A stretch of 54,399 bases of DNA from an uncultured Clostridia bacterium (lineage in GTDB: Bacteria > Bacillota > Clostridia > Christensenellales > Borkfalkiaceae), in the NCBI GenBank assembly GCA_944340905.1, contig CALVLT010000013.1:1-54399 (forward strand). The letters run 5' to 3'. A program made the position numbers and the translations under genes. Below, one piece after another: positions 5,440 to 6,311 of this stretch (position 1 is the stretch's first letter; the number at the start of each line of letters is the position of its first letter). A model generated the notes under the pieces. The model ran no database searches, was not told the origin of the DNA, and saw nothing but the letters and a program-made list of their open reading frames with translations.

Positions 5440-5600
5440 GGAAAGGAGTATACGTCATTCCGAGGGGGCGCAGCCCCGAAGGAATCCCCTTGCTAAGGGT
5501 TGAAAGAAATCCCCCCTGTCCTGAGGACATCCCCCCTTAAAACACTTATTAAGGGGGGGCGAATGACTGCGTTTTCATGCCCATAAGACAACACGCTTTT
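5440..5600. repeat. Repeat-like palindromic intergenic element
   Basis: A GC-skewed, C- and G-run-rich stretch with several nested palindromes: GGGGGCGCAGCCCC near 5463, CCCCTTGCTAAGGG near 5486 and CCCCCCTTAA / TTAAGGGGGG at 5531-5540 and 5549-5558. It has no convincing reading frame. The style (GTCATTCCGAGGG... then GGAATCCCC) resembles dispersed short repeats seen in Clostridia genomes. No second full copy is present in this window, so repeat status is inferred from its form. Confidence 0.5.
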
Positions 5601-5614
5601 GGGGGTTGCTCCCT

Positions 5615-5650
5615 TTTGAAAATGCTGCCCACCCGTCGGGCGGGTGGGCT
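5615..5650 (-). terminator. Terminator of the minus-strand tRNA-like RNA
   Basis: GCCCACCCG (5627-5635) pairs with CGGGTGGGC (5641-5649) across a 5-nt loop. Read on the minus strand the hairpin is followed by AGCATTTTC. It starts 5 nt beyond the encoded CCA of the RNA at 5655-5853, so the primary transcript would be about 240 nt. Confidence 0.65.
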
Positions 5651-5654
5651 GTGA

Positions 5655-5853
5655 TGGTCTGCCGAACGGGATTTGAACCCGCATTTGCGCTCTTCACGCA
5701 ATGCTTAGCGAATGAGGATGACCCGCTTCCCTACACGTTTCAGTCTGTCGGAACTTCCCCGACGTCGGCAGTGCCTTTCGGTGCCTCCGGAACCTCTCGC
5801 TTGCGACGGGCGTCCCAAGTTTTGCCCCGCTTTGTCCGTTAAGCTATCGGCAG
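5655..5853 (-). ncRNA. tRNA-like RNA, 199 nt, with a 120-nt insert in place of the anticodon arm
   Basis: Read on the minus strand, the ends form a perfect 7-bp acceptor stem (CTGCCGA with TCGGCAG), discriminator A and encoded CCA. TA at positions 8-9, a D arm (GCTT-AACGGACA-AAGC, with the conserved GG) and a T arm (GCGGG-TTCAAAT-CCCGT) are canonical. Directly 5' of the T arm is a long variable-arm-like hairpin (TTGCG-TGAAGAG-CGCAA), as in Leu/Ser/Tyr tRNAs. Between D arm and variable arm lie about 128 nt instead of 17-18, and no normal 5-bp/7-nt anticodon arm can be found. The insert can form several hairpins (GGGC/GCCC; a GAAA-capped GGCACC...; GTCGG-GGAAGTT-CCGAC), and two loops share complementary AACTT/AAGTT. 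A consensus promoter and a terminator flank it. It is too short for usual tmRNA and shows no group I intron core. Function unknown. Confidence 0.7.
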
Positions 5854-5863
5854 ATTTTCCGTT

Positions 5864-5893
5864 ATTATATCATAAGCGGCGCGGAACTGTCAA
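5864..5893 (-). promoter_or_regulatory. Promoter of the tRNA-like RNA, TTGACA-18-TATAAT
   Basis: On the minus strand TTGACA (5893-5888) and TATAAT (5869-5864) are separated by 18 bp. The expected start is near 5857, four or so nucleotides before the 5' end of the acceptor stem, as in stable-RNA genes. Confidence 0.85.
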
Positions 5894-5936
5894 CCCATTT
5901 CCAAAAAAACGCGCTGTCGTGCGATGAGAGCGAAGA

Positions 5937-5979
5937 GGGACGCGGGGGAATACGATCCCCTGTCCCGCATTTTTATTTT
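5937..5979 (+). terminator. Possible plus-strand terminator with no obvious upstream gene
   Basis: GGGAC-GC-GGGG pairs with CCCC-T-GTCCC around an AT-rich loop and is followed by GCATTTTTATTTT on the plus strand. No plus-strand gene is visible between upp and this site, so the transcript it would end is unknown. The remaining 6000-6311 sequence contains one more hairpin (AGCGGGGC...GCCCCGCT at about 6254-6273) and no credible gene. Confidence 0.45.
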
Positions 5980-6311
5980 GAAAAATATCAAATCATTATT
6001 TCGATAAAATTCTAAATAAAGAAAAACAGGATGAATTTTGAAAAACCAGAGAATGTACGGTAGGTGAAATATGATCTCGGGCAGACGGAACTACGTGAAT
6101 GTCAGGTCGTGCGTCTGTCGGGCATGGGCAGAAGCCGTAAAAGGGGTGTCGGGTGCAGTAAGGCGCCGGACATTATTCGTCCGACGCACTATTATTCGAT
6201 CGCTGTGCGCGAGGAGAAAAAGTAAGATACGTATTGCAAAAACGGGACATCGGAGCGGGGCAAATGCCCCGCTCTTTGCGTGAAGGCGGAAAAACTGCAC
6301 ACAATGGGGGT

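Follow-up and report, generated by a model that had tools for sequence, protein, structure and literature searches.

Among the RNAs described so far, the closest case that we found is tRNAOther, a pseudo-tRNA of Bacillus cereus. According to the accessible part of the report (PMC3399842) it carries a Trp anticodon, whereas the RNA presented here has another domain where the anticodon arm would be and uses the tRNA body as its outer frame. The transfer-messenger RNA (tmRNA, ssrA) likewise combines an acceptor and a T arm with an extensive insert that stands in for the anticodon arm, but our RNA differs from it by a true D stem, a variable arm and the absence of a conserved tag frame. Similarly, the bacterial Y RNA YrlA joins a tRNA-like module with D and T arms to another module, and its 5' and 3' ends form a large stem that tethers Rsr, as far as the accessible text of PMC8394870 describes it; the present RNA lacks such a terminal Y stem and has an acceptor stem with CCA instead. 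The accessible part of a review of non-canonical tRNAs (PMC7609411) mentions no replaced anticodon arm, and a literature search, whose coverage left out most subscription journals, returned no report of such an RNA.

The window, i.e. the whole stretch of 54,399 nt of clostridial DNA that was analysed, encodes a tRNA-like RNA of 199 nt on its minus strand (5655-5853, where RNA position p corresponds to window position 5854 - p). Its ends are those of a tRNA. The 5' strand of the acceptor stem, CTGCCGA (5847-5853, minus strand as for all features of the RNA, starting with C1-G72), is invariant among the five copies known to us except for one extra C in genome G013, and it forms 7 bp with the 3' strand TCGGCAG (5659-5665). 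A73 and the encoded CCA follow (5655-5658) and are kept in all five copies. The D arm, GCTT-AACGGACA-AAGC with G18, G19 and A20, lies at 5829-5844, the variable arm of 6 bp with a GAAGA loop at 5685-5701, and the T arm, GCGGG-TTCAAAT-CCCGT, at 5666-5682. One pair of the variable arm shows a double change and the second pair of the T stem occurs as C-G, U-G or U-A among the homologs. Acceptor, D and T arms and CCA are in place, and the canonical 5-bp anticodon stem with its 7-nt loop and U33 is absent. This confirms the first-pass annotation, which had listed intact tRNA ends, D arm, T arm, long variable arm and CCA without an anticodon arm. It had also placed 128 nt between the D arm and the variable arm; the large insert is real, and its length was measured as 127 nt (RNA positions 26-152), with the D arm ending at position 25 and the variable-arm stem beginning at 153.

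The RNA falls outside the families searched, as had been proposed. In a comparison with Rfam none reached its cut-off on the window RNA, the only match being a piece of 13.6 bits on the T arm. The Rfam tRNA model aligned the acceptor, D and T parts of the copy in G013 and skipped 126 nt, with a score of 19.3 bits against a cut-off of 29. A variant of tmRNA, suggested by tRNA ends that enclose an insert replacing the anticodon arm, is extremely improbable: a normal tmRNA above cut-off is encoded elsewhere in three of the five genomes (G004, G013 and G246), the D stem is real, the length is 199 nt, and the reading frame of the insert is open in the genome of the window (G000) and shifted by indels in G013. 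The earlier statement that the RNA is not a tmRNA therefore holds. In addition, the tmRNA model RF00023 gave no listed match at the locus, in a search that reports only the higher-scoring matches within a clan. Hardly more can be said for a bacterial Y RNA of the YrlA type, i.e. a tRNA-like domain with a stem that binds Ro/Rsr. The modular build with D and T arms would fit, but the two ends of the RNA are joined in an acceptor stem with CCA, which leaves no terminal Ro-binding stem, and no Ro/Rsr gene was found: TROVE (Ro) proteins were detected in none of the five genomes, two of which are at least 90% complete and all of which are incomplete. Unless an Rsr gene is found, the Y RNA reading is refuted.

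Copies of the RNA in G004 and G013 were detected by a nucleotide search of 101 relatives, and a sequence model run over 398 genomes of the family added those in G113 and G246, which brings the number of genomes with the RNA to five out of 398. The same five were recovered when the copy of G013 served as query against these 398 genomes. Within the genus the RNA is rare (4 of 103 genomes), and one homolog, that of G113, resides in another genus and at another locus. Pairwise identity among the five RNAs ranges from 77.7 to 95.0%. Variation is lower in the tRNA body than in the insert: the 5' tRNA part has 0.015 substitutions per site and the 3' part 0.067, compared with 0.094 for the variable arm and 0.128 for the insert. 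Nevertheless, 86 of the 132 alignment columns of the insert are invariant. The tRNA-like RNA goes beyond chance because it is conserved in four full-length homologs. Folding energy alone provides no evidence for a structured RNA (z of -1.62 for the window RNA; three single folds at -1.62, -0.44 and -1.32). The five host genomes are metagenome assemblies that are 83 to 96% complete, so that absences of genes from them, be it of tRNAs, of Ro or, in G000 and G113, of tmRNA, are weak evidence.

The conservation also bears on the view that the locus is a tRNA gene in decay that received an insertion by chance. Such decay would agree with the rarity of the RNA and with the fact that it is extra to the Arg tRNAs of the host, but it is highly improbable and is refuted by the conservation: the same architecture is found in five genomes of two genera, a promoter-like site and paired changes are kept, and the gene appears to have been transferred as an intact unit. 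Beyond the five copies little was recovered. The sequence model gave 56 weak matches, and the six of these that were inspected by eye contained no tRNA-like unit. A structural model run over 396 genomes of the order yielded 13 weak hits besides G000 and G004, seven of which contain ordinary tRNAs and six none; we judged all 13 to be tRNAs or noise despite E-values down to 8e-6. The E-values of purpose-built models are rough, and hits near 1e-5 turned out to be ordinary tRNAs or noise. A scan of genome contigs for an 18-nt motif of the insert returned nine stretches, of which four are the homologs and five, by eye, lack the RNA. In viral contigs the 18-mer matched once, without the RNA, four other patterns did not match, and the pattern of acceptor plus D arm gave nine matches, one of them a tRNA. 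Phage records contained pieces of the T arm in six cases and one further match of 23 nt; with the 3' part of the RNA alone 369 phage records were matched, and none of the best 40 covers 80% of the query. The plasmids searched gave no match.

The gene seems to have its own promoter. A consensus scan revealed the sigma-70 promoter TTGACA-18-TATAAT at 5864-5893 (minus strand), 10 nt before the 5' end of the RNA, with 12 of 12 consensus bases where 0.2 such sites are expected by chance. Promoter-like sites occupy the same place in all five copies, with 12 matching bases in G000, G113 and G246, 11 in G004 and nine in G013, the last being the minimum of the scan, for which 0.5 sites are expected by chance. 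The 12/12 match supports the earlier claim of a consensus promoter and a dedicated gene, and the position of the site suggests that the transcript probably starts a few bases upstream of the mature 5' end. The terminator fared less well. A possible terminator lies downstream of the RNA, the GC-rich hairpin GCCCACCC/GGGTGGGC (5627-5649, minus strand), but it is weaker than had been stated, its T tail is poor, and a terminator scan of 5560-6010 reports none. Hairpins with T-rich tails directly after the RNA and on the same strand were reported by the scan in G113, G246 and G013, and the one reported in G004 points the opposite way. Given that T-tailed hairpins arise 0.5-0.9 times per region in shuffles, those of the homologs may lend weak support to a terminator. 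Further downstream, the intergenic region contains a GC-rich palindrome, CCTTCGGGGCTGCGCCCC (5465-5482), which occurs once in the window and may be a dispersed genomic repeat.

The first-pass annotation had considered a tRNA with a small unknown intron. An intron, a minimal group I or another one, that is spliced out by a single excision to leave a working tRNA is very unlikely in our view. We tried the removal of single segments of at least 15 nt (20 nt in a narrower first try), in class I and class II layouts and with up to 12 nt allowed ahead of the variable arm. None of them yielded an arm with a 5-bp stem, a 7-nt loop, U33 and a purine at position 37 in any of the five homologs. In favour of an intron, G000 alone gives class I arms with four of the five pairs, U33 and a purine at 37; these are built from bases of the variable arm, and none of the other four homologs has an equivalent arm with U33. 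Excisions that are consistent with the alignment columns and leave at least three pairs in all five copies number 25, and among the best eight of these none has U33 together with a purine at 37. When the insert was shuffled, at least one full anticodon arm appeared in 13% of 60 trials; the lack of an arm is the chance expectation, and a real spliced tRNA would need one in every copy. ARAGORN did not call the RNA in default mode, and in intron mode the matches listed included a tRNA-Glu(CTC) in the window and a tRNA-Arg(CCT) in G004. These calls can be counted for an intron, but they disagree on both anticodon and junction between homologous genes, and at lowered thresholds the intron mode produces many false genes. 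Moreover, the insert is far shorter than the smallest natural group I introns, which measure roughly 200 nt, and Rfam gave no match to an intron. The earlier view that the RNA does not look like a group I intron is in line with the lack of a group I match, and neither a group I core nor exons that could be joined into an anticodon arm were seen in the RNA. Since a canonical anticodon arm does not result from any single excision of 15 nt or longer, splicing to a tRNA is unlikely, and the intron reading can be considered largely refuted.

The insert itself has several conserved elements. At the position of the anticodon arm one structure model places a helix GGGC/GCCC with a 12-nt loop, AAAACUUGGGAC (5808-5827). 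G013 lacks its 5' strand, one pair is broken in G004 and one pair shows a double change, and the helix competes with a longer hairpin over 5785-5819. A stretch of 18 nt, GTCGCAAGCGAGAGGTTC (5790-5807), is identical in all five copies. It is followed by a small hairpin, GGC-ACU-GCC (5767-5775), kept in all five with one G-U, and by a hairpin of 5 bp with a 7-nt loop, GUCGG-GGAAGUU-CCGAC (5747-5763), in which U-A and C-G replace each other in a double change. At 5707-5732 we drew by hand a putative H-type pseudoknot, AGGG/UCCU plus AGCG/CGCU, which could pair in all homologs and is weakly tested, as seven of its eight pairs never vary across the five sequences. Its loop includes an invariant CCUC (5714-5717), which holds a CCU outside any normal anticodon arm. 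Any role assigned to the near-invariant CCUC and the pseudoknot is a guess. A sequence CGAGAGG, which we take to resemble the sarcin-ricin loop, was rejected as a candidate: the bases on either side are different, and G013 and G246 do not keep the longer similarity.

A structure model of 50 pairs, which includes the hand-drawn pseudoknot, was compared with versions in which the partners had been slid. In the model 99.2% of the cells are paired, against 34.7-47.2% with slid partners, and four cells show double changes, against 0-1; the model was derived from the same five sequences, which favours it over the slid versions. The double changes affect three pairs, in the hairpin at 5747-5763, the variable arm and the T stem. 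Shuffles reached the covariation score of this model in six of 500 cases and its number of double-change pairs in 63 of 500. An alternative model with the GGGC/GCCC helix adds a fourth double-change pair, and here one of 500 shuffles reached the score and 18 of 500 the number of pairs. The check for compensatory changes that had been proposed reveals double changes in the T stem, the variable arm and the insert helices and is silent on the acceptor and D stems, all 11 pairs of which are invariant in the five sequences. Every structural statement made here is limited by this small number of sequences (n=5). Two hairpin loops of the insert had been described as complementary (AACTT/AAGTT). A pairing between them is not conserved, since a one-sided change breaks it in G013 and another in G246.

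A comparison with ordinary tRNAs points to arginine. A20 and A73 are present in all five RNAs, and the accessible part of PMC9976931 names A20 as the foremost determinant of arginine identity in E. coli; with A20 and A/G73 the RNA carries two of the features of an arginine-accepting tRNA. Another such feature is C35 in an anticodon loop; the CCU of the RNA stands in the CCUC, outside a normal anticodon arm. Among the 32 tRNAs that ARAGORN found in G004, A20 occurs in all four Arg tRNAs and in none of the 28 others, where Val(tac), printed with an A because the last GG of its GGG loop had been taken, was counted as G20. This set has gaps, since tRNAs for Asn, His, Ile and Lys are missing from the 32 (33 tRNA matches in Rfam). 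When the G113 copy was scored against it, Arg(CCU) came out best, by a small margin (36, followed by Met with 34, Arg(ACG) and Gly(GCC) with 33 and Arg(UCU) with 32). The Arg(CCU) of G004 shares A20 and a D loop of 8 nt with the RNA and, unlike it, has an ordinary anticodon arm. The same difference applies to a viral tRNA-Arg(UCU) (L157, 545-619), which agrees in 24 of the first 25 nt; it was retrieved with a pattern of those same letters, as the only tRNA among nine matches. Arg tRNAs are present in G004 and, among the 15 of 25 tRNA matches examined, in G000; therefore, the tRNA-like RNA is extra to them. The pair C1-G72 is unlike the Arg tRNAs of G004, where only Pro(CGG) has it. Together with A73 and a UUGGGA loop it hinted at kinship with Pro(UGG). 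A guessed Pro(UGG) stem-loop had no exact match in 20 genomes, in a search that would miss a Pro(UGG) with another stem. We dropped this relation, which is not disproved, considering that 18 genomes share two Pro tRNAs regardless of the presence of the RNA. Pro(AGG), observed in all 20 genomes, and Pro(CGG), observed in 18, seem to serve the proline codons, a single TGG-bearing match with two mismatches to the Pro(UGG) arm was seen in G245 (C25, 20471-20487, minus strand), and G004 also has a Leu(AAG). If it holds, such an A34-rich tRNA set is unusual.

The genomic context differs between the carriers. The RNA adjoins a gene of the BrkB family in G000 and G246 (assigned by Pfam for G000), is convergent with tuf in G004 and G013, and lies near jag, yidC and dnaN in G113, where tuf, jag, yidC and dnaN were identified by reading their translations and not by a family search. 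Out of 83 genomes with BrkB, 30 BrkB neighbourhoods were put through a strict scan, which retrieved the RNA in G000 and G246 only; the copies of G004 and G013 lie outside the stretches covered, and a bulged acceptor would be missed. The RNA of G113 is the closest to that of the window, with 95.0% identity. By contrast, the DnaN of G113 is 47% identical to that of the host of the window and 46-48% identical to those of five genomes of the same genus as the window, as against 65-86% for six genomes of its own genus (G013 gave no DnaN match). Because the RNA is 95% identical although DnaN is only 47% identical, the comparison implies that the promoter and the RNA would have moved horizontally between genera. 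Of the flanking 100 nt, the upstream part aligns above all 200 shuffles in two of ten genome pairs (G000 with G113 and with G246) and the downstream part in one of ten (G013 with G246). The part that G000 and G113 have in common upstream is the promoter. The boundaries of the conserved unit are sharp.

The RNA is probably a non-coding RNA with a job other than codon reading, and the suggestion that it is a tRNA mimic or a regulatory RNA names the class that we prefer. More specifically, we tentatively favour, as an account that falls somewhat short of probable, an accessory, horizontally moving gene for an unspliced RNA that derives from tRNA-Arg and has a structured effector domain capped by the tRNA body. 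The ancestor would have been an arginine tRNA, of which the acceptor, D, T and variable arms were retained while about 127 nt of structured RNA took the place of the anticodon arm. The RNA would be transcribed from its own strong promoter, the ends would probably be trimmed as in a tRNA, and it would act without splicing. The tRNA-shaped body may confer stability and access to tRNA-binding proteins, and the inserted domain, with one hairpin backed by covariation and a predicted pseudoknot that exposes the invariant CCUC, may be the effector. C-rich loops of Gram-positive small RNAs are known to pair with Shine-Dalgarno-like sequences, and the CCUC could likewise pair with the GAGG of ribosome-binding sites in target mRNAs. 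As expected of a trans-acting small RNA, the gene has a promoter of its own as judged by the consensus scans.

The main rival, unlikely but well ahead of the others, holds that the RNA is an arginine-tRNA mimic that acts through its body: it would bind ArgRS or be charged by it, or would be a bait, i.e. a decoy for an enzyme that attacks or modifies tRNA-Arg, such as an anticodon nuclease, and the insert would serve to block its use in translation. A20, A73 and the 8-nt D loop like that of Arg(CCU) agree with this, as do the CCU within the invariant CCUC, the low variation of the tRNA body, and the patchy distribution and apparent horizontal transfer. On the other hand, 86 invariant columns out of 132 are more than a mere block needs, C1-G72 sets the RNA apart from the Arg tRNAs of G004, and a proper anticodon loop for ArgRS is lacking.

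It is possible, though on balance doubtful, that the five copies represent a new class of natural tRNA-scaffold RNAs, with a tRNA-Arg body, a conserved effector fold, a mobile gene consisting of promoter plus RNA, and a non-translational task. Such a class would make use of tRNA maturation and perhaps of arginylation. Bench workers use tRNA scaffolds to stabilise RNAs, and a natural, unspliced scaffold gene would, if true, be a clean case of a tRNA recruited as chassis. It would also mean that a bare RNA gene spreads between genera, and that genes of this kind can be missed by a default tRNA finder together with Rfam.

A weak model hit in G013 drew attention to a further conserved element, which is intergenic, about 300 nt long and equipped with a perfect T arm. 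It is found in G245 (L181:178-475, plus strand), where no copy of the tRNA-like RNA was found, in G013 (L039:279-580, minus strand) and in G004 (L038:8650-8910, minus strand). The elements of G013 and G245 are 97% identical, and that of G004 is 70% identical. ARAGORN and Rfam gave no match to the element, and it has no match in the window at an E-value of 1. In the copies of G013 and G245 a complementary strand, a D region like that of tRNA-Ser and an arm resembling an anticodon arm with GCU come directly after the T arm and a GGGAGA strand, an order of parts as in a circularly permuted tRNA-Ser; the element of G004 is without the GCU loop. A part of 130 nt folds at a z of -4.85, and the covariation term of the three sequences is unfavourable. 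In G004 the element ends about 170 nt from the RNA homolog, in the opposite orientation, and in G013 the two share a contig at a distance of about 1.9 kb; if the scaffold proposal is true, its proximity would point to a locus of tRNA-derived RNAs.

Another tRNA-like unit, of 175 nt, was seen in a genome of the same order and another family (G066, L040:5880-6054, minus strand). It gave no Rfam match over cut-off and no clear sequence kinship with the RNA of the window. It has a 7-bp acceptor stem, GGAGCGG/CCGCTCC, a T arm and an insert of roughly 110 nt, has no CCA, and lies among small ORFs in a region that we read as prophage-like.
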